In this document: piece by piece, positions 20,377 through 35,027 of the stretch | Numbering within the stretch: position 1 is the first letter of the stretch | How the letters are laid out: each line of letters starts with the position of its first letter | Origin: an uncultured Rikenellaceae bacterium | GTDB taxonomy: Bacteria > Bacteroidota > Bacteroidia > Bacteroidales > Rikenellaceae | Assembly (NCBI GenBank): GCA_946486375.1 | Contig: CAMLTW010000004.1 | Coordinates: 1-64,000 of the forward strand | Direction: 5' to 3' | Length of the DNA: 64,000 nt | The notes under the pieces: model-generated | Told to the model about the DNA's origin: nothing | Seen by the model: the letters and a program-made list of their open reading frames with translations, nothing else | Database searches by the model: none | Program-made: the position numbers and the translations under genes

Positions 20377-20386
20377 TAATCCACGG

Positions 20387-20579: not shown

Positions 20580-20807
20580 GCGACCTCGGGGGATTGGATT
20601 TTTCAGCAAAGGTAACCGCCGGTTTCCATTCCTGCCAATGCCGGCATTCTGCCCGTGGGGTCTCGGAAAAATCTTCCTCTCCGGCTGTCGAGCGTATTTT
20701 TCCTTACCGGCCATGGCGGATGTCCACCGCCACCTTTCAAGGCAGAAAAATAATCCCTGCGGCCGCAAACGGGCCGAAAAAAGGGAAATAAAAAAATAGG
20801 TTAAATC
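20580..20807 (+). promoter_or_regulatory. Structured leader of the methyltransferase-helicase gene
   Basis: A promoter-like block with GCAAAGGTAACCG lies at about 20606-20618. The core structure is an outer helix GGAAAAA (20665-20671) / TTTTTCC (20697-20703), 5' side TCTTC (20672-20676), inner helix CTC (20677-20679) / GAG (20690-20692), and 3' side CGTA (20693-20696). A second hairpin CGGCC ... GGGCCG (about 20760-20777) precedes the tail AAGGGAAATAAAAAA. The same fold with different stems is present upstream of five other genes. Confidence 0.7.
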
Positions 20808-23800
20808 ATGGGTTACAACAAATTGACATCATTATCGGCCAACATCAAGGCCATAGAGACAGCAGTAGCTATCCACTCGCAGGGCAGGACAGCCACGCAA
20901 GAGGAAAAACAGGTATTGGCGCAGTATTCAGGTTTCGGCGGTATCAAGGATGTACTGGACTTGGGTACGGACAAGCCGCTTGACAAAGGGGTTGCCGGGC
21001 TTTTGAACCGTCTGCTGGATGCGTTAAGGACACTTGCAGGGGGTGACGAGGCAGCTTGCCGTTCACTTGTTGAAAGCATCAAGTCATCTGTATTGACAGC
21101 GTTCTATACGCCGCAATTCCTGATTGACGCAGTGGCGGCACAGATACACAAGACATTTTCTGCCAACGGCTTGCAGATGCAAAGTTTTCTTGAACCGAGC
21201 GCAGGTATCGGCGGTTTCCTGCCTGTAGCCATGCCCGGCACACGCAGCTATGCTTTTGAGAAAGACACCATTACAGGACTTGTACTTTCGCTGCTGCATG
21301 AGGACGCAACCACCGTAACGGCAGGGTTTGAAACGATAGGCACACAGGAGCTGGAGCATCGGAAATTCGATGTCATTGCGTCAAACATTCCTTTCGGCAA
21401 CTTCCGTGTCTTCGATGCCGACCTGTGGAAAAAGGGCGGTATCTACGAACAGGCCACAAAGACCATTCACAACTATTTTTTTGTCAAGGCTATGGAACTG
21501 CTTTCCGAGGGCGGTCTGCTTGCCTTTGTCACTTCAAGAGGTGTGGCCGACACGGCAGGAAATAAGTTTGTACGTGAGTATCTGGTGAACCATGCCGACC
21601 TTATCAGCGCAGTACGTTTGCCTGACGCTCTTTTCATGCAGACAAGCGGTATCGAGGTGGGCAGCGACCTGCTCATATTCCAGAAACATACCAATAAGAC
21701 GGCACTCTCCGCACGTGAACAGATGTTTTTGCAGGTAGCCAAGGAAATGTACGACATGAACGGAACGATGACTGAAAACGCCAACAGGCTGTTTTCCATG
21801 CCGAAGACCGTACTGGCGACCGACAGCCGTATCGTGATGAACCAGCACGGCAAATATGTACGCAAACACCAGTGGCTCGGCTCTGATGCGGCCATGGCAC
21901 AATACCTTTCCGCTTTGCTCAAATACGACTTTGACCGGTATTTCCGCAAAATACTTTTCGGACAGCAGGGCGAAGCGTCCGTGCAGATGTCGCTGTTCGG
22001 GATGCAGGAGACGACCGCACTCTCCGTAAACAGAGGACGGAGAGCCTACACGGAAAAACTCGAGGACTGGATGAAAAGCGGTACATTGGTAATGTTCGAG
22101 GGGCAGATTGGTACGGTCGTGTTCCGCAAGTCAAGCCACTATACCGATGTGGCCGTGGATTTCGTTCCGGTGGACGAGGGAAAGGTCAATATGGAGCGTG
22201 CAGCCGACTATTTCCCTGTCCGTGAAGCGTATTTCATGCTTTCTACGAAAGAAAGGGATTTGCAGACTGAACAGACTGCCATACGTGAGCGGCTAAACAC
22301 CCTCTATGATGCCTTTGTAGCCAAATGGGGATTTTTCCATGAGAACGACAACAAGGAGTTTATCATGCTTGACAGCCTCGGTGTCGAGGTGTTCACTATC
22401 GAAATGCAGCTTGGCGGAGATATAGTCAAGGCCGACATCATGCGTGAGCCAGTGGCTTTCACCAAGATTGCGACTGACCGTATTCTACAGCCGTCGGAAG
22501 CGCTGGCAAGCAGCCTCAATTTCTACGGCAAGGTGGAAATGGACTACATCATGCGCTCTACCGGCCTGTCTGATGAAGATGTAATCGCAGCGTTGCAGGG
22601 CGAGATATTCTACAATCCTGTTACGGATGAATGGGAACACAAAGGCAAGTTCATTGCCGGAAATGTGGTTGACAAGTACAAGGAACTCACATCCTGCCTT
22701 GATGACCTGTCCGGCAGGGAAAGGGATTGGACGGAAATCTCCGCAAGGGCACTGGAGAACGCAACGCCCGAAACAATTCCCTATGAAGAGCTGGATATAA
22801 ACATGGGCGAGCGTTGGATTGACCCGCAGCTTTACGCCGACTTTGCGGCAGAACTTTTCGGGGTGGAAGCCGAAGTGATGTACTTTGATGTCAACGATAC
22901 CTATGTAGTTCGTCTGAAAGGTTACTCCCCGGCAGCATACAACACCTATTCCGTGCGCAATTTCAACGGTGAAGACCTGTTTGTCCATGCCTTGCATGAC
23001 ACAGTGCCGGAGATAACCAAAGAAGTGTATCGCAACGGCGACAAGGTACGTGTGCCCGACGAGGAAGCCATTCAGGAAGCGGCCACCAAAATACAGGAAA
23101 TCCGCAGCAATTTCAACCAGTGGCTCGATGCCCGTCCTCTGGAAGTCAGGGATGAACTGGTACGCACATACAACGAGCGTTTCAACTGCTATGTCCGTCC
23201 GGCCTATGACGGTTCGGCACAGACCTTTCCGCAGCTTTCCTTTGAGCAGTTCCCGTACAACGAACTCTACCCGTCGCAGAAAGACGCAATCTGGATGATT
23301 AAGCAGAACGGTGGTGGTATCTGCTGGCACGAAGTAGGCACAGGCAAAACCATGATTATGTGCGTCTCGGCCTATGAAATGAAGCGTCTGGGATTGGTAC
23401 AGAAGCCTCTGATTATCGGCCTGAAAGCGAATGTACACGAAATTGCCGACACGTTCCGCAAGGCATACCCGAACGCAAAAGTCCTGTACCCGGGCAAGGA
23501 AGATTTCACACCGGCCAACCGCAAAGAGGTGTTTTCCAAAATCAAGAACAACAACTGGGATTGCATCATCCTGACACACGACCAGTTCGCCAAGATACCG
23601 CAGTCCGAGGAAACCATGATAGAGATATTCACAGAAGAGCTTTACGATGTGGAGCGAAGCCTTGAAGTGTTGGAACAGTCCACCATGCGCTACCGCAGCC
23701 GCAAGATGCAGAAAGGGCTGGAAGTGAGACAGGAAAATCTGAAAGCGAAGCTGTCAGAACTCCGTACAAAACTGGACGACCGCAAGGATGATACCGTGGA

Positions 23801-25793
23801 CTTTCATTCAATGGGTATAGACCACATCTTTGTCGATGAATGCCACATGTTCAAGAACCTCATGTTCCAGACACGCCACAACAGGGTGGCAGGTATCGGC
23901 AATACAAAAGGCTCGCAAAGGGCGATGAACCTGCTGTTTGCCATCCGTGACATCCAGCACCGCACAGGCCGTGACCTTGGGGCGACTTTTTTGTCCGGTA
24001 CGGTGGTGGTAAATGCGCTGACAGAGCTTTATGTGATGTTCAAGTATTTGCGCCCACGTGAACTCAAGCGTCAGCAGATTAGCTGTTTCGATGCCTGGGC
24101 GGCCATATTTACCAAAAAGACAGCCGACTATGAGCTGAACGTGACAGGGGCAATCAAACGCAAGGAGCGTTTCCGCACTTATATCAAAGTGCCGGAACTG
24201 GCGATGTTCCTGCGTGAAATCACCGACTACCGTACAGCCGACATGATACATCTTGATGTGCCGGAGAAAAATGTCCGCTTCCTCTCTCATGCGCCGACAA
24301 TCGAGCAGGAAGAAATGATCGGACGTCTCGTTTCCTTTGCAGGTAGTGGAAACTGGGAAGACCTCGGGCTTGACACAATCGAGCCGGACAACCTCGACAA
24401 GGCAAAGATGCTCATTGCTACCAATGTGGCACGCAAGATGGCTCTCGACATGCGCCTTTTGGGTAACAAATTCCACGACGATGCGGACAACAAGGCTTCC
24501 ATCTGCGCCCGGACCATCTATGACTATTATGTACGCTCGGCGGCCAATAAGGGTACGCAGTTTGTCTTCAGTGACCTTTCCACTTACAAGCCGAACGAGT
24601 GGAACATCTATACCGACATCAAGGAGAAACTGGCACGGCTCGGCATCCCGGCTGACGAAATCCAGTTTATCCAGTGCGCTACCACGGAGAGAGCGAGAAA
24701 ACGGCTGTTTGAGGATATGAACAGCGGCAGGGTGCGTGTTCTCTTCGGCTCTACATCCATGCTCGGTACAGGAGTGAACGCCCAGCAGCGGGCTGTGGCG
24801 GTGCATCATCTGGAGATACCATGGAGACCTGCCGACATGGAGCAGCGCAACGGTCGTGCGGTACGCAAGGGCAACACCGTGAAACTCTGGGGCGGTAACG
24901 TGGTGGACATAATCATCTATGGAACAGAGAAGACTTTGGATGCCTACAAGTTCAACCTGCTCAAAAACAAGCAGATGTTTATCAACCAGATAAACAACGG
25001 CACTATTGCCGTGCGCCGCATCGACGAGGACTGCATGGACGAGGACAGCGGAATGAACTTTGCCGAGTTCGTGGCTATCCTTTCAGGAAATACTGACCTT
25101 TTGAACAAGGCCAAGCTCGACAACAAAATCATGCAGCTGGAGAAAGAACAGGCCATATTCAAGAAAGAGCGCATCCGTGCGGAGCGTAAGATTGCGGCCA
25201 ACACGGAAGCTGTCGGCAAGGCAGAGCGCATCGTGGCGCAGGTTGGGCAGGATATGGAGTATATCGCATCCTATAGCGGCAACAGGGAAACGCTGTTGCT
25301 CAATCTGCAGCAGGCTACCCGGGAAGAGACAGGCCGTGAACTGCACCGCATAGCCAAGACATACAGGGGCGAGGCTTACCGTACCATTGGCAGCTATATG
25401 GGGCTGAACCTGCTTGTCCGCAGCGAGTACACCCTTTCCGGTTCGTTCGACCGTAACGCTTTCTTTGTAGAGGGCGTAAGCGGACTGAAATACCGCTGTG
25501 GCGTGTCGGGAGCCCTGCCGTTGGGATTTGCCGAATCGGCACGATACCCGCAGGCCGCACTTGAAAGGATGCCGTCTTTGATAGAGAAGCAGCAGAAACA
25601 GATAGCCATGCTGCAGCACGAAATACCGACCTTGCAGGAAATCACCGCCCGGAAGTGGAGCAAGGCGGAAGAACTGGAGCGGTTGAAACAGGGATGTAAG
25701 GAATTGCAGCAGCGGATTGACGAGGCACTCAAGGAAGCCGAGCGTCCGCAGTCCGAAGTTCCCGAAGAAGAACACACTGTCAGGGCTGCCTGA
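20808..25793 (+). CDS. Giant DNA methyltransferase-SNF2 helicase fusion, 1661 aa
   Basis: The N-terminal 350 residues form an N6-adenine methyltransferase-like domain with motif I FLEPSAGIGGF (near 127) and a variant catalytic motif IV, NIPF (near 193). A SNF2-type helicase follows: Walker A VGTGKT (near 843), DECH box (near 1010), GTVVVNALTELY (motif III), and QRNGRAVRKGN (motif VI, near 1345). The C-terminal 230 residues are coiled coil. The layout resembles DarB of phage P1 and related mobile-element proteins thought to shield DNA from type I restriction. NIPF instead of NPPF/DPPY leaves methylation uncertain. It has its own structured leader and terminator and is likely expressed early after transfer. 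Confidence 0.85.
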   Translation: MGYNKLTSLSANIKAIETAVAIHSQGRTATQEEKQVLAQYSGFGGIKDVLDLGTDKPLDKGVAGLLNRLLDALRTLAGGDEAACRSLVESIKSSVLTAFYTPQFLIDAVAAQIHKTFSANGLQMQSFLEPSAGIGGFLPVAMPGTRSYAFEKDTITGLVLSLLHEDATTVTAGFETIGTQELEHRKFDVIASNIPFGNFRVFDADLWKKGGIYEQATKTIHNYFFVKAMELLSEGGLLAFVTSRGVADTAGNKFVREYLVNHADLISAVRLPDALFMQTSGIEVGSDLLIFQKHTNKTALSAREQMFLQVAKEMYDMNGTMTENANRLFSMPKTVLATDSRIVMNQHGKYVRKHQWLGSDAAMAQYLSALLKYDFDRYFRKILFGQQGEASVQMSLFGMQETTALSVNRGRRAYTEKLEDWMKSGTLVMFEGQIGTVVFRKSSHYTDVAVDFVPVDEGKVNMERAADYFPVREAYFMLSTKERDLQTEQTAIRERLNTLYDAFVAKWGFFHENDNKEFIMLDSLGVEVFTIEMQLGGDIVKADIMREPVAFTKIATDRILQPSEALASSLNFYGKVEMDYIMRSTGLSDEDVIAALQGEIFYNPVTDEWEHKGKFIAGNVVDKYKELTSCLDDLSGRERDWTEISARALENATPETIPYEELDINMGERWIDPQLYADFAAELFGVEAEVMYFDVNDTYVVRLKGYSPAAYNTYSVRNFNGEDLFVHALHDTVPEITKEVYRNGDKVRVPDEEAIQEAATKIQEIRSNFNQWLDARPLEVRDELVRTYNERFNCYVRPAYDGSAQTFPQLSFEQFPYNELYPSQKDAIWMIKQNGGGICWHEVGTGKTMIMCVSAYEMKRLGLVQKPLIIGLKANVHEIADTFRKAYPNAKVLYPGKEDFTPANRKEVFSKIKNNNWDCIILTHDQFAKIPQSEETMIEIFTEELYDVERSLEVLEQSTMRYRSRKMQKGLEVRQENLKAKLSELRTKLDDRKDDTVDFHSMGIDHIFVDECHMFKNLMFQTRHNRVAGIGNTKGSQRAMNLLFAIRDIQHRTGRDLGATFLSGTVVVNALTELYVMFKYLRPRELKRQQISCFDAWAAIFTKKTADYELNVTGAIKRKERFRTYIKVPELAMFLREITDYRTADMIHLDVPEKNVRFLSHAPTIEQEEMIGRLVSFAGSGNWEDLGLDTIEPDNLDKAKMLIATNVARKMALDMRLLGNKFHDDADNKASICARTIYDYYVRSAANKGTQFVFSDLSTYKPNEWNIYTDIKEKLARLGIPADEIQFIQCATTERARKRLFEDMNSGRVRVLFGSTSMLGTGVNAQQRAVAVHHLEIPWRPADMEQRNGRAVRKGNTVKLWGGNVVDIIIYGTEKTLDAYKFNLLKNKQMFINQINNGTIAVRRIDEDCMDEDSGMNFAEFVAILSGNTDLLNKAKLDNKIMQLEKEQAIFKKERIRAERKIAANTEAVGKAERIVAQVGQDMEYIASYSGNRETLLLNLQQATREETGRELHRIAKTYRGEAYRTIGSYMGLNLLVRSEYTLSGSFDRNAFFVEGVSGLKYRCGVSGALPLGFAESARYPQAALERMPSLIEKQQKQIAMLQHEIPTLQEITARKWSKAEELERLKQGCKELQQRIDEALKEAERPQSEVPEEEHTVRAA

Positions 25794-25819
25794 CCGTGAT
25801 TCATTGATTTAACCTTTTG

Positions 25820-25850
25820 CCTGTCCGGTCGTGATGATCGGGCAGGTTTT
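25820..25850 (+). terminator. Terminator after the methyltransferase-helicase gene
   Basis: CCTGTCCG (25820-25827) pairs with CGGGCAGG (25839-25846), one G-T pair included, and is followed by TTTT. It lies 27 nt after the stop codon. Confidence 0.75.
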
Positions 25851-25984
25851 CCTGTGTTTCGTCCTGCCGGGGCCGGCTGGCTTTTGTAGGCTGGCATCTG
25901 CCTTTTTTATCCTCCTTTTCCCTTTTTATCGCCTCCCTTTATATCTGTCTTTCAATCCTTTTATATCTTTGTCCTTGCAGTCCG

Positions 25985-26221
25985 TCCTGACCTTCCGGCT
26001 TATTGTTCCGCGAAAGTAACGGATAACAGCTGCACCTTGCAAATCCTCACGGCCTGCGGTGGCCGACGGAAATCTTCCTTCTCGGGGAGAAGCGTATTTC
26101 TGTCGCCAGATTTGTCCGGTTGCCGTTATCACTTTCGTGATGCGGAAAAATAAATCCGGCGAAGGTCTTTAAGGACCGAAAGCAGGGAAAGAAAAAAGTA
26201 AACTTAAAAAATGATAGCATT
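25985..26221 (+). promoter_or_regulatory. Structured leader of the DUF4313 gene
   Basis: A promoter-like block CCGCGAAAGTAACGG lies near 26008. The core: outer helix CGACGGAAA (26064-26072) / TTTCTGTCG (26097-26105), nine pairs including a G-T at 26068/26101; 5' side TCTTC (26073-26077); inner helix CTTCTC / GAGAAG with a GGG loop (26078-26092); 3' side CGTA (26093-26096). Then GGTC ... GACC and the tail AGGGAAAGAAAAAA. This is the cleanest copy of the shared fold. Confidence 0.75.
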
Positions 26222-26635
26222 ATGGAAAATGAAATCAGAGAAAGGGAAGTGGTTGTTGACGGCAAGACTTTGACGTTGTTACGCAAGGACGGAAAATGGG
26301 TTTTTCCGTTTGTCACGTATTATCAGCATGGACTCGGAACACCACTTTGTCTGGCATTGTTGGCGTATGTAGAAGACAGTAACGAATTTGAGTCGGAAGC
26401 TGTCATCACGGTCAATCTGCCTGGTGCGGAACGCAGTGCCGGGTGTCAGTTCATCGACACGAACAACAACGGGGAAGAAGTTCTCGACTGGCTCATGCTT
26501 TACGGTTTATGTACCCCTACCGGCAGATACGCCGTTTCCGGTTTCTGCAAGTACCCCGAGGTGGATTTTTATCAGAGCGAACGCTTCATGAAGCAGAAAG
26601 AGCTTTGCGACAGGTATTTCAACTTTGTTGATTGA
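26222..26635 (+). CDS. DUF4313 family protein, 137 aa
   Basis: The pattern TVNLPGAERSAGCQFIDTNNN followed by WLMLYGLCTPTGRYAVSGFCKYPEVDF fits the DUF4313 family, small soluble proteins common on Bacteroidetes mobile elements and of unknown function. It has its own structured leader and is closed by a long stem-loop, so it is monocistronic. Being given its own copy of the same leader as SSB and the methyltransferase-helicase suggests it belongs to the same early-expressed group, possibly anti-defence; that is inference from layout. Confidence 0.75.
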   Translation: MENEIREREVVVDGKTLTLLRKDGKWVFPFVTYYQHGLGTPLCLALLAYVEDSNEFESEAVITVNLPGAERSAGCQFIDTNNNGEEVLDWLMLYGLCTPTGRYAVSGFCKYPEVDFYQSERFMKQKELCDRYFNFVD

Positions 26636-26637
26636 CA

Positions 26638-26696
26638 GGCAGGAGAAGGCGGTCATACGGGACTGCCTTCATGGCCTTGCCTGCCAGTGTCCTTTT
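26638..26696 (+). terminator. Long stem-loop after the DUF4313 gene
   Basis: GGCAGG (26638-26643) pairs with CCTGCC (26680-26685), and within it GAAGGCGGTC (26645-26654) pairs with GACTGCCTTC (26661-26670), ten pairs with one G-T. CCTTTTATAT follows. It is probably a terminator. Confidence 0.6.
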
Positions 26697-27182
26697 ATAT
26701 GGATACCTTTCCTGTATTTTCTTCCTTTTATATGCGGCTTTCCCTACCCGAAATTAAGGTATGATGTCTGTGCCGCGGTCCGCCCTCCACTCCAAGGTAC
26801 GGAAGGCTGTGCCCGATCAACGGCAGTCTGCTTCATACCGCTTCATGCCGGAGCTTCGACCTGTCGAAACAACCGGTATTCCGCTATATGGGCATCCTGC
26901 CTGGTTGTTGCTCCGGCACATTCCGCCTTTTGTCCGCAGCTTTCCTTTCCGGGCCGACGGCGTCGTGGGCAAACGGTGACACATTCTGCTTGTGCTGTCC
27001 GTCGTGTCTCCGGCATGTCACAAGCAGAAAGAGTCCCCATTTTGTTTGCTCGGCAGACCGTTTTTTACCCACCCAAGCCGTCATTCATCACTTTTATAAA
27101 CATCCCCTTATATATACGGGACGATTCTGCCTTTTATATCTGTATCGGGATTACCTTCTCTCGTCATTCCTTGCCTGCCGCC
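26697..27182. other. Gene-free stretch of about 490 nt
   Basis: No reading frame here has credible protein character on either strand. It contains several scattered C/T-rich runs with CTTTTATAT-like pieces (about 26690, 26735, 27110, 27130) and a segment GCTCCGGCACATTCCGCC. It separates the DUF4313 terminator from the ssb leader. I see no hairpin as strong as those in the leaders. Confidence 0.5.
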
Positions 27183-28055: not shown

Positions 28056-28063
28056 TATCTTTG
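28056..28063 (+). promoter_or_regulatory. -7 element of the parA operon
   Basis: TATCTTTG is a good TAnnTTTG match, with a TTG about 22 nt upstream (28031-28033). It directly abuts the iterons, so binding there would repress the operon, as expected for partition autoregulation. The ATG is 26 nt downstream. Confidence 0.65.
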
Positions 28064-28088
28064 TACCAGAACATTAAGACTCTGAATC

Positions 28089-28844
28089 ATGACAAAAATT
28101 ATAGCAGTTCTGAATCATAAAGGTGGGGTCGGAAAGACAACCACTACCATAAATCTCGCTGCCGCACTGCAGCTGAAGAAAAAACGTGTGCTCCTGATCG
28201 ACATGGACGGTCAGGCAAACCTCACGGAATCCTGCGGCCTGTCCATCGAGGAAGAACAGACCGTGTACGGGGCGATGAAGGGCGAATACCCTTTGCCGCT
28301 GGTCGAACTGAACAACGGCCTTGCCATTGTTCCCTCATGCCTTGACCTGTCGGCTGCCGAATCGGAACTTATCAACGAACCTGGCCGGGAACTGATACTG
28401 AAAGGGCTGATTGCGAAGCTGCTTGACAGCCGGAAATTCGACTATATACTGATTGACTGTCCGCCATCGCTGGGACTGCTCACGCTCAATGCTCTTACCG
28501 CGGCGGACTTCCTGATTATCCCGGTCCAGGCACAGTTCCTCGCCATGCGCGGTATGGCAAAGATTACTAATGTGGTTGAAATCGTCAGGCAACGCCTGAA
28601 TCCGGGACTGAGCATCGGAGGTATCGTGATCACCCAGTTCGACAAGCGCAAGACGCTTAACAAAAGCGTGTCCGAGCTCATCAACGATTCTTTCTGCGAC
28701 AAGGTGTTCAAGACCGTCATCCGGGACAACGTGGCTCTGGCGGAAGCCCCTATCAAGGGTCTGAACATTTTCGAGTATAACAAAAACAGCAACGGGGCCA
28801 AGGATTATATGGACTTGGCGCTGGAGGTACTGAAACTAAAGTAA
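28089..28844 (+). CDS. parA: ParA-family partition ATPase, 251 aa
   Basis: This is a deviant Walker A P-loop ATPase: KGGVGKTTTTINLAAAL (about 11-27), Walker A' LLIDMDGQANLT, and Walker B DYILIDCPPSLGLLTLNAL. Its length matches Soj/ParA proteins without an N-terminal helix-turn-helix. It binds DNA nonspecifically in its ATP form and moves the centromere complex, keeping the excised circular element or a plasmid-like state in daughter cells. The next gene, 7 nt downstream, encodes a ribbon-helix-helix partner and the upstream iterons are the probable centromere, so this looks like a complete partition cassette. Confidence 0.9.
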   Translation: MTKIIAVLNHKGGVGKTTTTINLAAALQLKKKRVLLIDMDGQANLTESCGLSIEEEQTVYGAMKGEYPLPLVELNNGLAIVPSCLDLSAAESELINEPGRELILKGLIAKLLDSRKFDYILIDCPPSLGLLTLNALTAADFLIIPVQAQFLAMRGMAKITNVVEIVRQRLNPGLSIGGIVITQFDKRKTLNKSVSELINDSFCDKVFKTVIRDNVALAEAPIKGLNIFEYNKNSNGAKDYMDLALEVLKLK

Positions 28845-28851
28845 AAACAAT

Positions 28852-29106
28852 ATGGGCAAAAGCGATTTATTGAAAGACGGTATGAAAAGCGGCCTTGACG
28901 GGCTGCTTTCATCAACCAAAAAATCCCCGCAGAAAAAAGAAACGGCTCCGGCCAAGGCGGAAAAGGAACCAGCGGTGCATTGCAACTTCGTCATTAACAA
29001 GAGCATTCATACCAGGATGAAATACCTGGCCATCGAAAAGAACATGTCTCTCCGTGACATCGTCAACGAGGCCATGAGAGAATATCTGGAGAAGCATGAA
29101 AAATGA
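28852..29106 (+). CDS. Ribbon-helix-helix partition partner (ParG-like), 84 aa
   Basis: A basic, flexible N-terminal 45 residues (Lys/Pro/Ala-rich) precede a compact C-terminal ribbon-helix-helix fold: HCNFVINKSIHTRMKYLAIE then NMSLRDIVNEAMREYLEKH. This is the layout of ParG/omega-type centromere-binding proteins, whose tails stimulate ParA. Directly downstream of parA and under the iteron-covered promoter, it is the likely iteron binder and autorepressor. DUF3408-like proteins of other Bacteroides elements are a distant alternative. Confidence 0.78.
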   Translation: MGKSDLLKDGMKSGLDGLLSSTKKSPQKKETAPAKAEKEPAVHCNFVINKSIHTRMKYLAIEKNMSLRDIVNEAMREYLEKHEK

Positions 29107-29128
29107 TTGAAAATTTGAAAGACGCACT

Positions 29129-29749
29129 ATGAGAGAAATAAATCCCAAAGAAACCACCCGTGCATACGCATTTGAGCTTTGGATGAAAGCCCCGATGCCG
29201 ATGGTTACATTTTTCAAGACTTTGGATGTCAGTCGTCTTGTCAAAATCAGCAAAAAGTCAGGTATGAAATTCAATATGCTGATGTGCTGGTGCATCGGCA
29301 AGGCGGCAAGCGGTATCAAGGAATTTTATATGCTGCCTGTCGGAGACAAATTGATGCAATATGATGCCATTGCGGTTAATACCATTGTTATGAACAAGGA
29401 CAATGAGGTCAGTTCATGCGATGTGCCCTTTTCTGATGATTTGCAGCTATTCAATGAAGATTATCTGAAATTGACAACGGAAGTAGCACAAAGCTGTGAG
29501 AACCACGACTTGACTGAAAGCATGGTAATAGGAACTTCCGCACTGGCCCAATATGAAATTGACGGTGCGGTAGGTATGTACAGCGGTATCTTCAACAATC
29601 CGTTTATAATATGGGGCAAGTACCGTAAGGGGTTCTTCAGGACGACACTGACGGTTTCATTCCAATTCCATCACACTCAAATGGATGGGGCACATGCTGC
29701 AAAGTTCCTGGATCGCTTGCAGCAGGAAATCAATAAATTACTTGTATAG
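29129..29749 (+). CDS. CatA-like chloramphenicol-type O-acetyltransferase, 206 aa
   Basis: The C-terminal pattern NPFIIWGKYRKG ... QFHHTQMDGAHAAKFLDRLQ is the CAT active-site region, with catalytic His in HHxxxDG (near residue 180-184). The N-terminal YAFELWMKAPMPMVTFFKTLDVS also fits. The length is slightly below classical CAT (about 213-220 aa). It transfers acetyl groups from acetyl-CoA, possibly to chloramphenicol; the drug specificity cannot be read with certainty. It starts 22 nt after the partition partner gene, so it may be expressed from the parA promoter. It is the first of four cargo genes with lower GC content than the surrounding backbone. Confidence 0.8.
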   Translation: MREINPKETTRAYAFELWMKAPMPMVTFFKTLDVSRLVKISKKSGMKFNMLMCWCIGKAASGIKEFYMLPVGDKLMQYDAIAVNTIVMNKDNEVSSCDVPFSDDLQLFNEDYLKLTTEVAQSCENHDLTESMVIGTSALAQYEIDGAVGMYSGIFNNPFIIWGKYRKGFFRTTLTVSFQFHHTQMDGAHAAKFLDRLQQEINKLLV

Positions 29750-29751
29750 CG

Positions 29752-30291
29752 ATGAATATGGAAACACAAAGATTGATACTTCGTCCCTGGACAGAAAACG
29801 ATGCAGAGTCTCTTTATAATTATGCCAAAGATCCTGCTATCGGCCCCATTGCCGGGTGGCCTCCTCATACATCTGTGGAAAACAGCAGAGAAATAATACG
29901 CGATATCCTTTCTGCACCCGAGACATACGCTGTAGTATTGAAAGAAACCAATGAACCGATAGGCAGTGTCGGAATTATGTTCGCTGATGGCGTACACAGT
30001 GCGGATATGCAGGATGGAGATGCAGAAATAGGATATTGGATAGGTGTTCCTTATTGGGGACAGGGACTTATACCGGAAGCCGTACAACGTTTGTTGAAGC
30101 GTTGCTTCGTCGAACTTGATGTGAAACGGGTCTGGTGTGGACATTATGACGGAAACATCAAATCCCGCAGGGTAATGGAAAAATGTGGATTCAAGTACCA
30201 TCACACAGAAGAAGGAAAGACTTCTCCGTTAGGAGATATCCGTACAGAACATTTTACTTTGCTTACCAGAGAGGACTGGAAAAAACGGTAA
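29752..30291 (+). CDS. GNAT acetyltransferase, RimJ/RimL type, 179 aa
   Basis: The start TQRLILRPWTENDAESLYNY is typical of RimJ-like GNATs. The acetyl-CoA site region is IGYWIGVPYWGQGLIPEAVQ (about 96-115) and the end NIKSRRVMEKCGFKY is the usual B motif. Members acetylate N-termini or small molecules, and some give resistance to antibiotics or toxins; the substrate here is unknown. It begins 2 nt after the CAT-like gene and so is probably translationally linked. Together with the next two genes it forms an accessory cassette. Confidence 0.85.
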   Translation: MNMETQRLILRPWTENDAESLYNYAKDPAIGPIAGWPPHTSVENSREIIRDILSAPETYAVVLKETNEPIGSVGIMFADGVHSADMQDGDAEIGYWIGVPYWGQGLIPEAVQRLLKRCFVELDVKRVWCGHYDGNIKSRRVMEKCGFKYHHTEEGKTSPLGDIRTEHFTLLTREDWKKR

Positions 30292-30311
30292 GAGAAATAT
30301 AAAAATGTCCC

Positions 30312-30710
30312 ATGATAAGAACTACGATAAAATCATTTATACAGGCTGATTTGGAATCTGTCTGGCATTCTGTCACTTCACTTTACGACTATTCATGGCG
30401 AAGTGACATAAAGGACATAGAAGTTTCCGACGAGCGCCATTTCAGGGAGATAAGTAATGAAGGCTATGTCACCTGTTTTACTGTTACTGTTATAGAGCCT
30501 TTTCTAAAATATTCATTTCTTATGGATAATGTGAACTTTTCCGGGGAGTGGACGGGACATTTCAGACAGGCTGAAAATGGAACGGAAGTGATTTTTACAG
30601 AGTCAATTAACCTAAAGAAATGGTGGTTATATCCTTTTGCATTGTTGTATTTGAAATTACAGCAGAAACGGTATATAGCTGACCTGAAAAGAAAATGTGA
30701 ACAAGAATGA
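30312..30710 (+). CDS. SRPBCC-superfamily (START-like) protein, 132 aa
   Basis: The opening TIKSFIQADLESVWHSVTSLYDYSWRSDI and the long final helix (FALLYLKLQQKRYIADLKRKCE) fit the polyketide-cyclase/SRPBCC fold, which binds hydrophobic ligands in a deep pocket. Function is unknown; such proteins are often linked to detoxification or small-molecule binding. It sits between two GNAT genes, overlapping the second by 4 nt (ATGA), in the acetyltransferase cargo. Confidence 0.7.
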   Translation: MIRTTIKSFIQADLESVWHSVTSLYDYSWRSDIKDIEVSDERHFREISNEGYVTCFTVTVIEPFLKYSFLMDNVNFSGEWTGHFRQAENGTEVIFTESINLKKWWLYPFALLYLKLQQKRYIADLKRKCEQE

Positions 30711-31204
30711 ACGGATCGGCCAAGTATATAATACGCCATTTGCAAGGTAGTGAGAACCATTTGCTAAGAGAATTTCTTTACGAAGCGATTTATATCCCTG
30801 AAGGAGTCAAACCGCCCTCAAAGGACGTGGTGGATTTACCTGAACTGAAACTGTATATTGAGGACTTCGGAAAGAAAAAAGATGACTTTTGTCTGGTCGC
30901 AGACTGTGAAGGGAAAGTGGTCGGTGCAGTATGGGTACGTATTATGAATGATTACGGACATGTGGATGACAGGACCCCATCGCTCTCCATATCCCTATAT
31001 AAGGAATACAGGAGTAAAGGCATAGGAAGCCATCTTATGCGTGAAATGTTTCGATTACTTGAGAGCAAAGGATATAGTCGCGTCTCTCTGTCCGTACAAA
31101 AGGCGAACTATGCCGTCCGAATGTATCTAAAACTTGGATTTAAGATCATCCATGAGACTGAAGAGGAGTTTGTCATGCTTAAAGATCTCTCACTATCCTA
31201 CTAA
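30707..31204 (+). CDS. GNAT acetyltransferase, 165 aa
   Basis: The acetyl-CoA-binding motif is SLYKEYRSKGIGSHLMREMF (about 103-122), followed by VSLSVQKANYAVRMYLKLGFK, the classic GNAT ending. The N-terminal half is the variable substrate side. The substrate is unknown. It is the last gene of the cargo, followed 62 nt later by a terminator. The three acetyltransferases in a row with a ligand-binding protein suggest a resistance or detoxification set rather than backbone genes. Confidence 0.85.
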   Translation: MNGSAKYIIRHLQGSENHLLREFLYEAIYIPEGVKPPSKDVVDLPELKLYIEDFGKKKDDFCLVADCEGKVVGAVWVRIMNDYGHVDDRTPSLSISLYKEYRSKGIGSHLMREMFRLLESKGYSRVSLSVQKANYAVRMYLKLGFKIIHETEEEFVMLKDLSLSY

Positions 31205-31265
31205 AGACGGACAACCTCTTATATATGTCATCTTCTTCAAGAAGACATCTCCCTATTATATTATA

Positions 31266-31300
31266 GATTACCGGTAAATTATCGGTAATCTTTTTCTTTT
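31266..31300 (+). terminator. Terminator after the acetyltransferase cargo
   Basis: GATTACCG (31266-31273) pairs perfectly with CGGTAATC (31283-31290) and is followed by TTTTTCTTTT. It is a strong intrinsic terminator for the parA-to-31204 transcript. Confidence 0.85.
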
Positions 31301-31369
31301 ATAGTTCCATAGAACATTTCTTTTATAATTCATCTTTTACCGCTTTCCGGCTTCATTCCCGCCGCACCG

Positions 31370-31596
31370 GCCTTGGTTTTATCAGATGCAAAGGTCTGCT
31401 GTCGCGCTTGATCCTCCGGCTTGAAGTGCATTTCCTGCAAATTCTTCCTTTCTGTGAAAGAGTAATTGGCAGGAAAAGCCGTCGTATGAAGCTGTACCGA
31501 CAGCTGTAAACCGCATCCATAAAACCCCAAGGCGGTTCAAACGGGAAAAGAACCGACCAGAGGGAAATAAAAAAACAATTCAAAATTGACATCGAC
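31370..31596 (+). promoter_or_regulatory. Structured leader of the 31597-33630 genes
   Basis: A block GGTTTTATCAGATGCAAAGG (about 31375-31394) resembles the ssb leader. The core: outer helix of 12 positions with one A-G mismatch (31431-31442 with 31465-31476), 5' side TCTTC (31443-31447), inner helix CTTTC-TGT-GAAAG (31448-31460), 3' side AGTA (31461-31464). A hairpin CGGTTC ... GAACCG and the tail CAGAGGGAAATAAAAAA follow. Confidence 0.75.
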
Positions 31597-31854
31597 ATGG
31601 ATAAAATAAGATTGGTAGTTTACAACGAATATGCACTGGGCTATATCATGCCCCAACAACCCGACAAGGTTTGCACATTGGCAGACAGGACTACGCTCGG
31701 CGCACCGTTCCGGACAATGCTTGAACCCTATTTCATCGGAAAGAACGATACCGTAAGGCTGGCCGGCAGGAAAGACTTCGACACGTTCCGGCTATCGTTC
31801 GGGGGGTACGACAATACGCAAATGTACGAGTATGACACCAACCAACAGGAATAG
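31597..31854 (+). CDS. Small hypothetical protein, 85 aa
   Basis: This soluble protein has a strand-rich start (MDKIRLVVYNEYALGYIM) and a C-terminal YDNTQMYEYDTNQQE; no family is recognised. It is the first gene after a structured leader and lies 45 nt upstream of the ParB-like gene, probably on the same transcript. Being first in the transcript, it may be needed early or may serve to set translation of the next gene. Confidence 0.65.
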   Translation: MDKIRLVVYNEYALGYIMPQQPDKVCTLADRTTLGAPFRTMLEPYFIGKNDTVRLAGRKDFDTFRLSFGGYDNTQMYEYDTNQQE

Positions 31855-31899
31855 CAGTAATCAGAAAATCAATGTATAACAAATCAAAATTTATGAATT

Positions 31900-33630
31900 A
31901 TGGAAACAATGAACATTCAATCAGTAGCAGAGAAGAACATCGTATCAGTAGTTTTGGCAGATATTCAGCCGAGTAACTATAACCCACGCAAGAATTTTGA
32001 TGTAGCAAGCCTTGCGGAATTGGCGGAAAGCATCCGTCAGCAGGGCGTCCTCCAGCCTATCGGGGTGCGTCCCATTGCGGAGAACCGCTTTGAAATCATA
32101 TTCGGGGAACGCAGGTATCGTGCCTCACTCATGGCAGGACTGGAAGAAATTCCGGCAATCGTTCTGAATGTTTCGGACGAGACCGCCGAAGAAATGGCGG
32201 TGACGGAAAACCTGCAACGCAAGGATGTAACCCCTATCGAGGAAGCAAACGCCTATCAGAGGCTGATAGAAAGCGGACGGCACGACATTCAGTCTTTGGC
32301 CATGCAGTTCGGCAAGAACGAGACCTATATCCGCACCCGACTGAAGTTCGTCTCCCTTATCCCCGAAATAGCAGAATTGTTGGAAAAGGATGAAATCACT
32401 ATCAGCGTGGCAAGCGAAATTTGCCGATATGGCGAGGACATCCAGAGAGAGGTTTTCGACAAGCACTTGAAAGAGGGTATCATGTTTGGCAGTTGGCGAG
32501 GCATGAAAGCGACCGAGGTGGCAAAGAACATCGAGCGCCACTTCACGACAGACCTTGAACGCTACAACTTTGACAAGACCCTTTGCCTGTCATGCCCCCA
32601 TAATACCAACAACATGACATTGTTCTGTGAGGGAACATGCGGAAAATGCGCCAACAAAGGCTGTCTTGATGAAATGAATGCCGCATTTTTGACGGAAAAG
32701 GCAATAGAGACCATTAAGGCTTATCCTGCACTATCTCTAAGCCATGACGCATATTGCTATAATGCGGATGCGGTTAATCGCCTCAAGGAAATGGGCTATG
32801 AGGTTGTGGCACTGCAATGCAGATACAAAGACTACCCGACACTTCCCGAAGAGCCTGAAGCCGGAGAATATGATACGGAAGACGAATATAAGGAAGCCAA
32901 GGTTGAGTATGAGCAGGATATGAACGATTATATGGAAGAGGGCAAGGAACTTGTACGCAGGGCAGAAGTAGGCGAAATATCGCTCTTCGCACGGATTGGG
33001 AACGAAGACATTGTCAAATGTTATGTGGAGAATTCCATGATGAATGCCGTCAGTGGACAACAGGCAGGACAGGAACAGCTTTCCCCGATTGAAAAACTGG
33101 ACAAGCAGGACAAGCGAAACAAGGAGATTGCCAGGGAAAAGACCGTGGAAGATACCAAAAAACAGATTTTGGAAGTGGATATGACCGAAACCAAGTTCGG
33201 GGCTGACGAAGAAAAGATGATTTATTTCTTCCTGCTTTCATCGTTGAGAAAGGAACACTTTGCCGCCGTTGGCATAGAGGGAGAACATTCGCCCTATCTG
33301 TCCAACGAGGACAAGACAAATATTGTGGCCAATCTTACCCCAAAGGCAAAAGCCGTCATCCGCAGGGATTTCCTGATTGAGAATTTCAAGAACGCATACG
33401 GAAGCAACGCCATAGCCGACATGTTGCTTGAATTTGCAGGAAAACACATGCCGGAAAGACTTGCCGACATCGAGAACGGACATAATGAAGTTTACGAAAA
33501 AAGACATCAGCGCATCGAAGAAAAGAAAGCCGTCCTTTTGGTGCAGGAACAGGCCAAACAGGAAGCAGAGCAGACTGAAACCGATGCGGACAACGAAAAA
33601 CAACCTCAATCCCAAGAGGTTGCTGCTTGA
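31900..33630 (+). CDS. Large ParB/Spo0J-like protein, 576 aa
   Basis: The ParB N-terminal (CTPase/nuclease-like) domain covers about 12-115: IQPSNYNPRKNFD, LAESIRQQGVLQPIGVRP, FGERRYRASLMAG, and ENLQRKDVTPIEEA. A helix-turn-helix region follows (about 130-200). A seven-Cys cluster at about 227-256 (CLSCPHN ... CEGTCGKCANKGC) suggests a zinc site not found in standard ParB. The C-terminal 320 residues are charged and helical. It is twice the length of Spo0J. Similar proteins of mobile elements bind DNA and some carry nuclease activity. It is not adjacent to parA, so it may serve entry or replication rather than segregation. Confidence 0.82.
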   Translation: METMNIQSVAEKNIVSVVLADIQPSNYNPRKNFDVASLAELAESIRQQGVLQPIGVRPIAENRFEIIFGERRYRASLMAGLEEIPAIVLNVSDETAEEMAVTENLQRKDVTPIEEANAYQRLIESGRHDIQSLAMQFGKNETYIRTRLKFVSLIPEIAELLEKDEITISVASEICRYGEDIQREVFDKHLKEGIMFGSWRGMKATEVAKNIERHFTTDLERYNFDKTLCLSCPHNTNNMTLFCEGTCGKCANKGCLDEMNAAFLTEKAIETIKAYPALSLSHDAYCYNADAVNRLKEMGYEVVALQCRYKDYPTLPEEPEAGEYDTEDEYKEAKVEYEQDMNDYMEEGKELVRRAEVGEISLFARIGNEDIVKCYVENSMMNAVSGQQAGQEQLSPIEKLDKQDKRNKEIAREKTVEDTKKQILEVDMTETKFGADEEKMIYFFLLSSLRKEHFAAVGIEGEHSPYLSNEDKTNIVANLTPKAKAVIRRDFLIENFKNAYGSNAIADMLLEFAGKHMPERLADIENGHNEVYEKRHQRIEEKKAVLLVQEQAKQEAEQTETDADNEKQPQSQEVAA

Positions 33631-33655
33631 CCATAATTCATAGTTGATTTCAGAT

Positions 33656-33684
33656 GCAGGGCGGAGAAATCCGTCCTGCTTTTC
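33656..33684 (+). terminator. Terminator after the ParB-like gene
   Basis: GCAGGGCGGA (33656-33665) pairs with TCCGTCCTGC (33670-33679), one G-T, closed by a GAAA loop and followed by TTTTCTG. Confidence 0.85.
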
Positions 33685-33773
33685 TGTTGAGTGCCGGAGG
33701 CAGACCGGCGCCGCCTGACCTTTTTTATACACCTCCCTGTCTTTCGGCAGTCTCCGTCTGCTGAAACAGTACG

Positions 33774-33870
33774 GACCGGGTTCTGGCTGATTCCTACAGG
33801 CCGCACGGGCGGTCTTCCGTCATCGGCCGGCCCGGATAACCTTTATAGCCGGACCTCTTATAATACCCCG
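33774..33870. repeat. Diverged intergenic repeat, copy A
   Basis: This stretch aligns with 34611-34705: shared pieces are CTGGCTGAT/TGGCTGAT, GCACGGGC, CATCGGCCG, and AACCTTTATAGC followed by GG-ACCT and TTnTAA. Both copies lie after a gene terminator region and before a structured leader, flanking the radC-like gene. They may be upstream parts of duplicated control regions. Confidence 0.55.
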
Positions 33871-33884
33871 GTAGTCTCAACATT

Positions 33885-34052
33885 TGTTTTCAGCGAAGTT
33901 ACAGCATCTTTCCGGACAAACGCAAGATCCGGGTGAATTTGGGAAACAATCTCCAATCCTGCGGATAGTATTCTTTCCCAAAATCTTGCACGAAGTCCAG
34001 ACAGAGCTGTGCACGGGCGAAAAAAATTGTTTCACCTTAAATCTTCGTTATT
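33885..34052 (+). promoter_or_regulatory. Structured leader of the RadC/JAB gene
   Basis: A block TTTTCAGCGAAGTTACAGC lies at about 33887-33905. The core: outer helix TTGGGAAACAA (33939-33949) / TTCTTTCCCAA (33971-33981) with one C-C mismatch; 5' side TCTCCA (33950-33955); inner helix ATCC-TGC-GGAT (33956-33966); 3' side AGTA (33967-33970). The 5' side deviates from TCTTC. The second hairpin is not evident, but an A-run (GCGAAAAAAATTG) precedes the start. Confidence 0.6.
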
Positions 34053-34496
34053 ATGAATACATTTTCTTTCCCTCAGATTTCAGTAAATTACAAGGATGCC
34101 GATGCTGCAAAACGTACCTTGGTAAACTCCTCCAGAGTGAGCTACGACATCTTCAAGGAGGCATACGATGAATGTATGCAGCATCATGAGGAATGCTGGG
34201 TGATGTTCCTCAATCAAGCCAACAGGCTTCTCGGACTCTCCTGCATATCAAAATGCGGCATCAGCCAGACCGTTGTGGATGTCCGTATCATCCTGCAGAC
34301 GGCTCTTCTGGCCCATGCCTCGGGCATAATCCTCAGCCACAACCACCCGTCAGGCAACATGGTGGCCAGCTCCAGTGACAATGCCATCACAAGCAAACTC
34401 AAGAAAGCCTGCGAAATCCTTGACATCACTCTCCTTGACCATATCATCCTCTCGGATACAGGCTATCTGAGCTACGCGGACGAAGGGATGCTTTGA
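34053..34496 (+). CDS. RadC/JAB (JAMM) domain protein, 147 aa
   Basis: The JAMM metal site is ILSHNHPSGNMVASSSDNAIT (H-x-H-P-S-G near residue 95, D 11 residues on), followed by LLDHIILSDTGYLSY. This is the RadC-like domain without the N-terminal helix-hairpin-helix of chromosomal RadC. These short versions are very common on mobile elements, where they are suspected of aiding DNA repair or antirestriction, without proof. It has its own leader of the shared family, which places it with ssb and the ParB-like gene in the presumed early set. Confidence 0.85.
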   Translation: MNTFSFPQISVNYKDADAAKRTLVNSSRVSYDIFKEAYDECMQHHEECWVMFLNQANRLLGLSCISKCGISQTVVDVRIILQTALLAHASGIILSHNHPSGNMVASSSDNAITSKLKKACEILDITLLDHIILSDTGYLSYADEGML

Positions 34497-34610
34497 CAGC
34501 ATCTCTTTTCACGGCAAATCCCGTTATACTGCCGCCCTCATGTGCGCCAGGCGGAGACTGTTATAAAACCTTCATGCACGACGGCAGCCCTGGGCTGCTG
34601 TAAGCACTCC

Positions 34611-34705
34611 GGTCCGGATCTGTGGCTGATGACGGAATCCGGCACGGGCCGTATTCTGCCATCGGCCGCTCCGGGAACCTTTATAGCGGCACCTGTTTTA
34701 ACGCC
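34611..34705. repeat. Diverged intergenic repeat, copy B
   Basis: This is the partner of 33774-33870, with the same order of blocks (GTGGCTGATGACGG, GGCACGGGCCGTATTCTGCCATCGGCCG, AACCTTTATAGCGGCACCTG in part). Identity is uneven, so the duplication is old or the blocks are functionally conserved. It lies between the RadC gene and the next structured leader. Confidence 0.55.
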
Positions 34706-34789
34706 GTCCGTCATAAGCCCCCGCCACCACCCTTATCCCTTTCTATTTTCCCTCTTGTATTGACATGAGAGTCATTTCATCTTTCGTCG

Positions 34790-35027
34790 TCCTTCTCGTC
34801 GCCGCGTGGACTTTACTGGTGCGAATGTAGGCGGTCGAGCCTGTTCCCTCCGTTTTGAAGTGCATTTCCTGCAAATTCTTCCTTTCTCTGAAAGAGTAAT
34901 TGGCAGGAAAAAACATCGGGAGAGGCTTTGACGACCGTCTCTCGATGCACCGTAAATCCCGAAGCGGCTCCTCCGAAAAGGAGGCCGAACAGAGGGAAGA
35001 AAAACAAAATTGTTAAATATCAGAATT
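34790..35027 (+). promoter_or_regulatory. Structured leader of the 35028-35988 genes
   Basis: The block CCGCGTGGACTTTACTGGTGCGAATG (in part 34802-34827) parallels the ssb leader. The core: outer helix (34865-34876 with 34899-34910, one A-G mismatch), 5' side TCTTC (34877-34881), inner helix CTTTC-TCT-GAAAG (34882-34894), 3' side AGTA (34895-34898). Then ATCGGGAGAG ... CTCTCGAT, GGCTCCTCC-GAAA-AGGAGGCC, and the tail CAGAGGGAAGAAAAAC. Confidence 0.75.

Follow-up and report, generated by a model that had tools for sequence, protein, structure and literature searches.

The closest described systems are the single-stranded-DNA promoters Frpo1 and Frpo2 of plasmid F and their homologues on ColIb-P9 (PMC9849209). 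No early expression of downstream fusions was seen there without the Frpo hairpins. Further candidates, Frpo' and Frpo*, come from the leading regions surveyed by Samuel et al. 2024 (PMC11541004). That search used known Frpo sequences together with the consensus TTGACA/TATAAT, so that promoters of Bacteroidota would probably be missed; the string 'Bacteroid' is absent from its main text. A second group, ssoA, ssoU and sso1 of ICEBs1, consists of folded single-stranded DNA that is sometimes read by polymerase as a promoter to make a primer (PMC4595007). 'Bacteroides' does not occur in the main text of that paper.

The DNA analysed here, called the window, is a stretch of 64,000 nt from an uncultured Rikenellaceae bacterium (GCA_946486375.1, CAMLTW010000004.1:1-64,000, forward strand). 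It contains six real hairpins that are probably Frpo-like single-stranded-DNA promoters, carried by the transferred strand of conjugative elements in Bacteroidota, and possibly also priming sites. The sequence features behind this assignment are the fold with its covariation, the asymmetry of the promoter boxes, the wobble polarity of the strands, the neighbouring genes and the way in which the hairpins' strand relates to that of relaxase genes. Promoters in Bacteroidota (sigma-ABfr) have a -7 box, TAnnTTYG or TAnnTTTG, and a -33 TTG box. Many conjugative elements of Bacteroidota spread genes for resistance and competition in the gut; to our knowledge, the ways in which an incoming single strand withstands restriction in these hosts are little studied.

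As described for Frpo1 and Frpo2, a hairpin on the transferred strand would rebuild a promoter, which stands before genes of the leading region, ssb among them; F has two Frpo copies (PMC9849209), and the window's element has six hairpins. The leading-region islands of PMC11541004 offer a further likeness: their transferred strand bears anti-defence genes as well as genes for SSB and methylases, and they contain folded promoters. The sso elements are likewise folded single-stranded DNA, but they are priming sites, whereas here several copies precede genes. The present form is set apart from Frpo by its described features, a TAnnTTTG/TTG promoter instead of -10/-35 and a host group that is Bacteroidota. 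We know of no Frpo with the conserved apical module TCTTC/(A/C)GTA. Single-stranded-DNA promoters are known from E. coli plasmids, and this form belongs to another major bacterial group.

Six hairpins and their relatives

The initial annotation had placed six folded leaders before the genes at 20808, 26222, 27441, 31597, 34053 and 35028, and hairpins do stand at all six sites (each core occurring once: 20669-20699, 26070-26099, 27255-27282, 31440-31467, 33947-33973 and 34874-34901). The motifs claimed for the internal loop, TCTTC on the 5' side (TCTCCA in the 34053 copy) and (A/C)GTA on the 3' side, are both present, and the claimed 3-nt inner loop is seen in five of the six copies. The structure so described is merely the apical part of a longer imperfect hairpin of about 150 nt found in all six copies; it precedes a gene each time, with minus-strand DNA fold z values of -3.4 to -5.1. 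R1, a covariance model trained on these copies, recovers every one of the six, at 39.9-61.8 bits. The features are as follows.

20590-20760, minus strand: hairpin before the N6-methylase/helicase gene 20808-25793; minus-strand DNA fold z -4.1.
20658-20710: apical module of the 20808 copy, R1 45.2 bits; gene by Pfam N6_Mtase, Helicase_C.
20607-20614, minus strand: -7 box TACCTTTG of the 20808 copy; TTG at 20636-20638, 21 nt before the box.
25995-26170, minus strand: hairpin before the DUF4313 gene 26222-26635; minus-strand DNA fold z -3.9 (-3.69 in another run).
26059-26110: apical module of the 26222 copy, R1 52.2 bits; DUF4313 gene by Pfam.
26011-26018, minus strand: -7 box TACTTTCG of the 26222 copy; TTTG at 26040-26043, 21 nt before the box.
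27180-27340, minus strand: hairpin before ssb, 27441-27854; minus-strand DNA fold z -3.4.
27244-27293: apical module of the 27441 copy, R1 61.8 bits; gene by Pfam SSB.
27202-27209, minus strand: -7 box TACATTCG of the 27441 copy; no TTG at the right distance.
31375-31540, minus strand: hairpin before the gene at 31597 (phrog_11458), then parB 31900-33630; minus-strand DNA fold z -5.1.
31429-31478: apical module of the 31597 copy, R1 59.5 bits.
31389-31396, minus strand: GACCTTTG of the 31597 copy, one base from TAnnTTTG; exact pattern absent.
33870-34035, minus strand: hairpin before the RadC-like gene 34053-34496; minus-strand DNA fold z -5.1.
33936-33984: apical module of the 34053 copy, R1 39.9 bits; gene by Pfam RadC.
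33894-33901, minus strand: -7 box TAACTTCG of the 34053 copy; TTG at 33923-33925, 21 nt before the box.
34800-34960, minus strand: hairpin before the gene 35028-35306 (no family matched); minus-strand DNA fold z -4.6.
34863-34912: apical module of the 35028 copy, R1 58.4 bits.
34822-34829, minus strand: -7 box TACATTCG of the 35028 copy; no TTG at the right distance.

The stems had been called wholly unlike. The copies do differ, but those before 31597 and 35028 have near-identical apical stems, so that there are about five independent stems among the six. Elsewhere in the 64 kb, up to E=5, R1 finds only weak reverse readings of two of the six. A second model (R2) was built from 40 matches found by R1; on the whole genome of the organism it gives the six window copies and a seventh on another contig. 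Of 393 genomes from the order, 64 contain relatives of the hairpin, the organism's own included.

Compensatory change, as had been claimed, is clear in the alignment. Among 36 distinct rows, 126 cells are altered on both sides (35.6 +- 6.6 when shuffled), and the covariation score is 0.493 against 0.154 shuffled and 0.198 for the best slid version. With 107 distinct rows, in an alignment that includes some reverse second readings, there are 331 two-sided changes versus 84.8. A single common fold with a conserved internal loop is borne out. Rfam families share with the hairpins a conserved covarying fold, but none of them matches at its gathering score, either in the window, for whose loop the initial annotation knew of no described family, or in 20 relative loci. 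Rfam matches at E<=5 in 20300-36000 are three, chance-level and all away from the hairpins.

Two sets of copies were used for the counts below. In the first, 187 model matches were reduced to 175 (12 second readings out), to 135 at 90% identity, to 127 with full arms, to 83 by a strict similarity cut and to 80 with complete flanks. A few of the 83 are probably false, since weak matches (E up to 0.02) were kept. Probable false copies, for example inside long open frames, include L081, L156:10612 and L199. For further use 154 matches were listed, less own-genome matches, those already listed and reverse second readings; 139 of the 154 loci were taken after a 31.5-bit cut and repeat removal, and two repeats (L089, L219) and six small loci were left out as source loci. 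The second set comprises 95 loci (one source listing gave 80 of at least 119 stretches), with 89 matches that have full flanks and 44 that are non-redundant, 37 of these unlike the first set.

Probable folding strand and promoter boxes

The arms of each hairpin match their own partner, with a median of 33.2 versus 19.4 for swapped arms in the first set and 24.7 versus 11.8 in the second (among the matches listed). Folding energies do not tell the two strands apart. A sense-strand RNA would keep G.U and avoid A.C, and the arms fail in this: on the plus-strand reading A.C outnumbers G.T by 136 to 67 in the 83 copies. The control for this set leans the same way (523:426), and against it the odds ratio comes to 1.65 (P=0.002). 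For the second set the raw ratio is 89 to 30 (44 copies among the matches listed; P=6e-8 assuming independent sites). The apical helix alone has no polarity (A.C 58, G.T 46). The G-T pair at 26068/26101, which the initial annotation had taken to favour a sense RNA, is present, but the wobble polarity of the longer arms is opposite to that single pair. Because A.C mismatches are G.T on the minus strand, the minus strand seems the better folder, and it seems to be the strand that folds.

The minus strand of the upstream arm bears the pattern TAnnTTYG in 53 of 80 copies, versus 4.0 when shuffled. Elsewhere in this set it is found in 6 (upstream arm, plus strand), 4 (partner arm, plus strand) and 4 copies (far upstream). 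In the second set the same arm and strand have the box in 26 of 44 copies, versus 2.4 shuffled, with no box on either plus strand and 5 far upstream (among the matches listed). The exact pattern is missing in 27 of the 80, among them the 31597 copy. In the window five of the six copies have an exact -7 box; three of those five have TTG at 21 nt, and the other two have the box with no TTG at the right distance. In a count made without a control, 38 of the 94 TTG that precede the box do so by 19-23 nt.

On the plus strand there is no such enrichment. The -7 box occurs there in 6 of 83 copies at -250 to -110 (8.2 shuffled) and in 6 from -110 to the tip (6.4 shuffled). Among 12 gene starts of the window block, a plus-strand TAnnTTTG lies within 250 nt of parA at 28089 alone, and so of none of the six genes behind hairpins.

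These findings bear on the cis-regulatory RNA leader, the reading of the initial annotation, by which a fold of the plus-strand mRNA would control translation or termination, perhaps via an element-encoded protein common to the six units. Such a leader would suit the strong covariation, the 65 of 82 listed gene starts that lie 58-147 nt past the tip and the one copy folded as RNA (z -2.8). We nevertheless consider it quite unlikely, given the opposite wobble polarity of the arms, the lack of plus-strand promoter enrichment upstream and an upstream arm that bears the -7 box on the other strand. Some copies also have no near same-strand gene, for example one placed tail to tail with a short gene of the minus strand. 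A NusG-type element-encoded antiterminator acting on RNA leaders was rejected: no NusG-like family was found among the window proteins scanned, and the wobble polarity spoke against an RNA.

Folding of the strand is predicted to rebuild promoter boxes that follow the host's own consensus. The -33 region is mostly paired, and the -7 region less often. Counted from the -7 box, pairing in 50 of the 83 copies is 0.83-0.96 at positions -27 to -21, 0.44-0.68 at -6 to +6 and 0.76-0.90 at +7 to +23. The spacer at -20 to -11 is paired 0.52-0.88, and the dip, in a profile made without a control, is wider than the box. In the minimum-energy fold of the 26222 copy an unpaired stretch lies beside the -7 box, with CTTTCG itself paired.

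A -7 box on the minus strand would by itself work in double-stranded DNA too, as an ordinary promoter for an antisense RNA or a divergent gene, with the inverted repeat as operator or cruciform. In 26 of the 83 copies the nearest upstream open frame is indeed a minus-strand one; in the other 57 it is on the plus strand, so that a divergent gene to serve is often absent. The RNA of such a promoter would exclude the hairpin, and the lower pairing of the -7 region than of the -33 region and of the stretch beyond the box is relevant only if the arms pair. We regard this reading as extremely improbable.

Genes behind the hairpins and a proposed mechanism

A gene starts 40-330 nt past the tip in 82 of 112 copies, versus 42 of 117 on the mirror side. 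The 112 comprise these 82, two with very long frames (at least 1600 codons) that the script had dropped and that raise the count to 84, and 28 in which this rule finds no gene start past the tip. The products of 81 of the 82 genes were scanned (one of 1351 codons was omitted), five of them the window's own. In the 25 of 37 families listed, there are ArdA (5), SSB (5), RadC (2), N6_Mtase (2), ArdC (1) and ParB (1), and no SOS inhibitor. Other families behind hairpins are DUF6943, DUF4313 and DUF7688. In the window itself the hairpin genes include SSB, RadC, N6-methylase/helicase and ParB (Pfam etc.). The predicted context is that of a leading region, with ssb and anti-restriction genes.

The hairpins might instead be priming sites alone, of the sso/ssi type, where RNA polymerase makes the primer of the second strand and the genes behind are incidental. 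Polymerase-dependent sso are known (PMC4595007). Two relaxase-adjacent copies would suit such a role, one with no same-strand gene listed for about 3.1 kb (L166) and one with no gene judged real for about 1.3 kb (L091). The presence of six copies in a single element, each preceding a plus-strand unit, speaks against it, as do the enrichment of gene starts behind the hairpin and the SSB and anti-restriction genes among them; we find priming alone very unlikely.

The single-stranded-DNA promoter, our preferred reading, would act as follows. During conjugation one strand of the element, here the minus strand, would pass into the recipient, where every stretch of about 150 nt would fold back on itself. 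Through the fold the -33 box would come to lie in double-stranded DNA, and the upstream arm's -7 box, of the sigma-ABfr type, would stay less firmly paired. Host RNA polymerase could then bind and transcribe toward the hairpin base and into the following gene, whose template would be the same minus strand. Since polymerase would read the folded minus strand on entry, DNA-protection genes would be made before the second strand. In the double-stranded DNA formed later the arms would come apart, leaving the plus strand with no promoter of this type. The short RNA could in addition serve as a primer for the second strand, and in copies that lack a gene behind them priming may be the chief role. 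For the window's element we infer single-stranded entry of the minus strand, polymerase binding, the timing and the priming.

The conserved tip module, TCTTC/(A/C)GTA, lies just upstream of the -33 box. It may, we suggest tentatively, dock a specific protein (an alpha subunit of RNA polymerase, a primase or a factor encoded by the element) in a class of single-stranded-DNA promoters across Bacteroidota, active only as single-stranded DNA, that would serve conjugative and mobilizable elements both in turning on protective genes and in priming the second strand.

If the promoter reading is true, single-stranded-DNA promoters exist for a very different sigma factor system. Such promoters would mark leading-region genes, would give the strand and transfer direction for elements with no known oriT, and would flag new candidate anti-restriction genes, e.g., DUF6943, DUF4313 and DUF7688.

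Relaxases and the presumed transferred strand

The relaxase search covered 28 of 34 other genomes with hits and 47 of 61 further ones. The nearest relaxase gene within 25 kb is on the hairpin's strand in 38 of 44 cases, some of the relaxase matches being weak. After removal of near-duplicates it is on the same strand in 16 of 19, yet ahead of the hairpin in just 10. A general rule places the relaxase gene in the lagging region, and by this rule, as given in PMC11541004, the transferred strand is assigned in CTnDOT-type elements.

No oriT was found in the window's element, profile searches of the organism's own genome gave no relaxase there, and a relaxase motif scan of the window frames gave nothing convincing; because of this, we infer the transferred strand there. 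PF02486, PF03389 and PF08751 have no match in the own genome, and PF03432 matches only contigs C2 and C11. PF01076 matches only contig C1, which also carries the seventh hairpin, about 6.5 kb from the match and on the same strand.

Hairpin family and longer fold

All six hairpins, which precede the genes at 20808, 26222, 27441, 31597, 34053 and 35028 (copies are named by gene start), were located where the initial annotation had placed them. A covariance model built on these copies (R1) recovers 6 of 6 in the window, where its only other matches up to E = 5 are weak reverse readings of two hairpins. The proposal that pairing is kept by compensatory change is borne out. In 36 distinct copies, two-sided cell changes number 126 against 35.6 expected, and most of the covariation signal is lost when the partner is slid by one to three columns; thus, the hairpins are not random palindromes. 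A larger alignment of 107 distinct rows gives 331 against 84.8. The stems generally differ between copies as described, except that the apical stems of the 31597 and 35028 copies are nearly identical. No Rfam family matched the window or 20 relative loci at gathering score.

A longer imperfect hairpin, seen on folding about 250 nt of either strand, has the originally described hairpin as its tip. Six stretches of 160-176 nt each, folded as minus-strand DNA, have z values of -3.4 to -5.1; a separate minus-strand fold run on one window copy gave -3.69. Across relatives each arm matches its own partner, not the arms of other copies. In the first relatives the median arm-to-arm score is 33.2 for own arms, 19.4 for swapped and 20.8 for shuffled ones, and own-arm fit exceeds the 95th percentile of shuffles in 111 of 127 copies. 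In a second set (44 non-redundant copies picked solely by the exact apical pattern from named genomes and viral contigs) the scores are 24.7 for own and 11.8 for swapped arms. The 26222 copy also folds a second small hairpin, GGCC/GGCC, on the upstream arm adjoining the tip (window 26051-26064); visual inspection showed similar ones, uncounted, in several relatives.

R1 matches occur in 35 of 200 genomes of the family, and matches to R2, a model built on 40 R1 matches, in 64 of 393 genomes of the order (own genome included in both). In a phylum sample R2 detected 11 of 395 genomes, four of them from this order, the own genome included. A pattern with 21 fixed bases found at least 119 stretches in genomes of 84,980 species; among the 80 matches listed, 79 have titles that we assign to Bacteroidota (Bacteroides, Phocaeicola, Parabacteroides, Prevotellaceae, Alistipes, Pedobacter, Mucilaginibacter and others), and the remaining one is titled as an uncultured bacterium. 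Viral contigs gave 15 pattern matches, whose sequences are included in the second set. Nine draft contigs (L102, L108, L117, L122, L144, L173, L186, L211 and L101) end less than 200 nt from a hairpin, perhaps through assembly breaks at long inverted repeats or multi-copy elements.

Folded strand and probable promoter

A sense RNA keeps G.U and avoids A.C, and a minus-strand fold, written on the plus strand, does the reverse. The polarity score treats A.C and G.T alike and counts outer-arm mismatches that have a Watson-Crick pair on either side. A single G-T pair had been taken to favor a sense-strand RNA; the outer arms of the first set (83 non-redundant copies) point the other way, with 136 A.C and 67 G.T. 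By copy, 47 lean to A.C, 17 to G.T and 19 are even. Shuffled arms lean slightly in the same direction (523:426); correcting for this leaves an odds ratio of 1.65 (P = 0.002). The second set has 89 A.C and 30 G.T (P = 6e-8 if sites are independent, uncorrected for the shuffled-arm lean), with 32 copies toward A.C versus 6; its 37 copies unlike any in the first set have 71 and 24. The apical helix alone, at 58 to 46, has no clear lean.

The Bacteroidota primary sigma factor uses TAnnTTTG as its -7 box, together with TTTG near -33, the latter not found in Flavobacterium johnsoniae (PMC7366714). Of the 80 first-set copies with complete flanks, 53 have TAnnTTYG on the upstream arm's minus strand, versus 4.0 in shuffles of that arm. 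It occurs in 6 on the plus strand of that arm, in 4 farther upstream, and on the partner arm in 3 (minus) and 4 (plus), the latter about the chance rate. In double-stranded DNA most copies thus have no such promoter aimed at the gene. The polarity is also what a minus-strand RNA would give, but on the downstream side only 3 of the 80 have a minus-strand -7 box (the shuffle figure, 8.6, is that of the plus strand). In the second set, 26 of 44 copies have the box on the upstream arm's minus strand (shuffles 2.4), with 0 on either plus strand and 5 far upstream, and in the copies unlike the first set it is 21 of 37 versus 1.9. By raw count, with no control, 38 of 94 TTG ahead of the box lie at 19-23 nt.

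Five of the six window hairpins have the exact -7 box; the sixth reads GACCTTTG. An uncontrolled pairing profile over the 50 of 83 copies that have the box and are alignable across it gives 0.83-0.96 in the -33 region, 0.52-0.92 (uneven) in the spacer, 0.44-0.68 around the -7 box and 0.76-0.90 beyond it. No plus-strand TAnnTTTG lies within 250 nt of the six hairpin genes (0 of 6), and parA in the same block has one at 28056. Upstream of parA (28089), in window 27888-28064, this ordinary plus-strand -7 box reads TATCTTTGT; a run of TAGTA/TACTA repeats ahead of parA resembles a partition operator or site.

The geometry is shared with Frpo, the single-stranded-DNA promoter: the upstream arm on the minus strand goes from tip to base. 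Polymerase on this duplex would run off the hairpin base with the minus strand as template, and this run-off would lead into the gene behind the hairpin. Frpo-type promoters are known as a kind. The logic is shared, whereas the present hairpins have a different promoter, their own conserved apical module and another phylum. Judging by its position immediately upstream of the -33 box, the TCTTC/(A/C)GTA module may be contacted by polymerase or by a different protein. The Frpo searches of PMC11541004 and PMC12826799 started from known Frpo sequences or from the sigma-70 consensus and would probably miss the Bacteroidota form. 'Bacteroid' is absent from the main text of both papers. Titles and abstract openings listed from mostly open-access literature, preprints excluded (20 of 1,995 in one search), yielded no description in Bacteroidota.

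Genes behind the hairpins

The window, a conjugative element, encodes an integrase, TraG ATPase, coupling protein, TraM, DUF4138 and DUF5045 on its minus strand. The six hairpins sit within a block of plus-strand genes.

Units behind the window hairpins
plus strand, N6-methylase/helicase of 1661 residues
plus strand, DUF4313 protein
plus strand, SSB then ParA
plus strand, small protein then ParB
plus strand, RadC-like protein
plus strand, protein without known family

Related blocks have two hairpins in one Bacteroides finegoldii record, adjoining type VI secretion genes, and three in one Parabacteroides distasonis record, adjoining traK, traM and traN. SSB, methylases and anti-restriction genes are typical content of the leading region, the segment with which a conjugative element first enters the recipient (PMC11541004).

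In 82 of 112 copies (84 when two very long, unlisted frames are counted) an ATG frame of 70 codons or more begins 40-330 nt behind the tip, compared with 42 of 117 on the mirror side; 65 of the 82 starts fall 58-147 nt behind the tip. Family scans of 81 products, five of them the window's own and some frames probably spurious, gave DUF6943 (6), ArdA (5), SSB (5), DUF7688 (3), RadC (2), N6_Mtase (2) and one each of ArdC, ParB, DUF4313, DUF4121 and Mob_Pre, in a tally of 25 of 37 families. No link is obvious for further products, e.g., HsdR, a lysine exporter and VanW. In a minority of copies, a clear same-strand gene is lacking nearby. For example, the hairpin of L166 faces the tail of small minus-strand genes, and the start of the relaxase frame is about 3.1 kb ahead; in L091 plus frames within the first 1.3 kb look spurious, and the distance to the relaxase start is about 2.5 kb. 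Such copies may have a role in priming the second strand, as some sso do (PMC4595007); this priming is also known for Frpo (a title cited in PMC11541004).

Several other genes were observed. Between the ssb-parA and 31597 units, window 29129-31204 holds a CAT-like acetyltransferase (PF00302), two GNAT acetyltransferases and a weak cyclase-like match, without hairpin-model matches. Two anti-restriction-related proteins (ArdC domain; phrog_7245 anti-restriction) are encoded outside the hairpin block at 1594-3282 and 5722-8106, minus strand. In L035, a Parabacteroides distasonis element, an annotated RNA polymerase alpha C-terminal domain protein (14082-14819) adjoins the coupling protein; the corresponding window region has a DUF6088/AbiEii pair (39604-41339).

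Relaxases and the transferred strand

Relaxase genes (PF03432) within 25 kb of a hairpin are on the same strand in 38 of 44 cases (33 ahead, 5 behind) and opposite in 6; with near-duplicates removed, these are 16 of 19 (10 ahead, 6 behind) and 3. Provided that the relaxase gene is in the lagging region and is read away from oriT, a shared strand would mean that the folded strand is the one transferred. None of the families tried (PF03432, PF02486, PF03389, PF08751 and PF01076) identified a relaxase of the window's own element. The own genome's seventh hairpin, on another contig, C1 (10637-10677, minus), has a Mob_Pre relaxase ahead on the same strand (C1:3839-4156). In L223, a CTnDOT-type record, a hairpin-led stretch has a 94% match on the minus strand near 55.1 kb, and after it come two small genes, PcfK and PcfJ; mobABC is on the same strand near 25 kb. 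The hairpins of L106 and L086 lie about 280-360 nt upstream of a same-strand Mob_Pre-like relaxase (called by Pfam in L106 and by similarity to L106 in L086), and these sites may be very near oriT.
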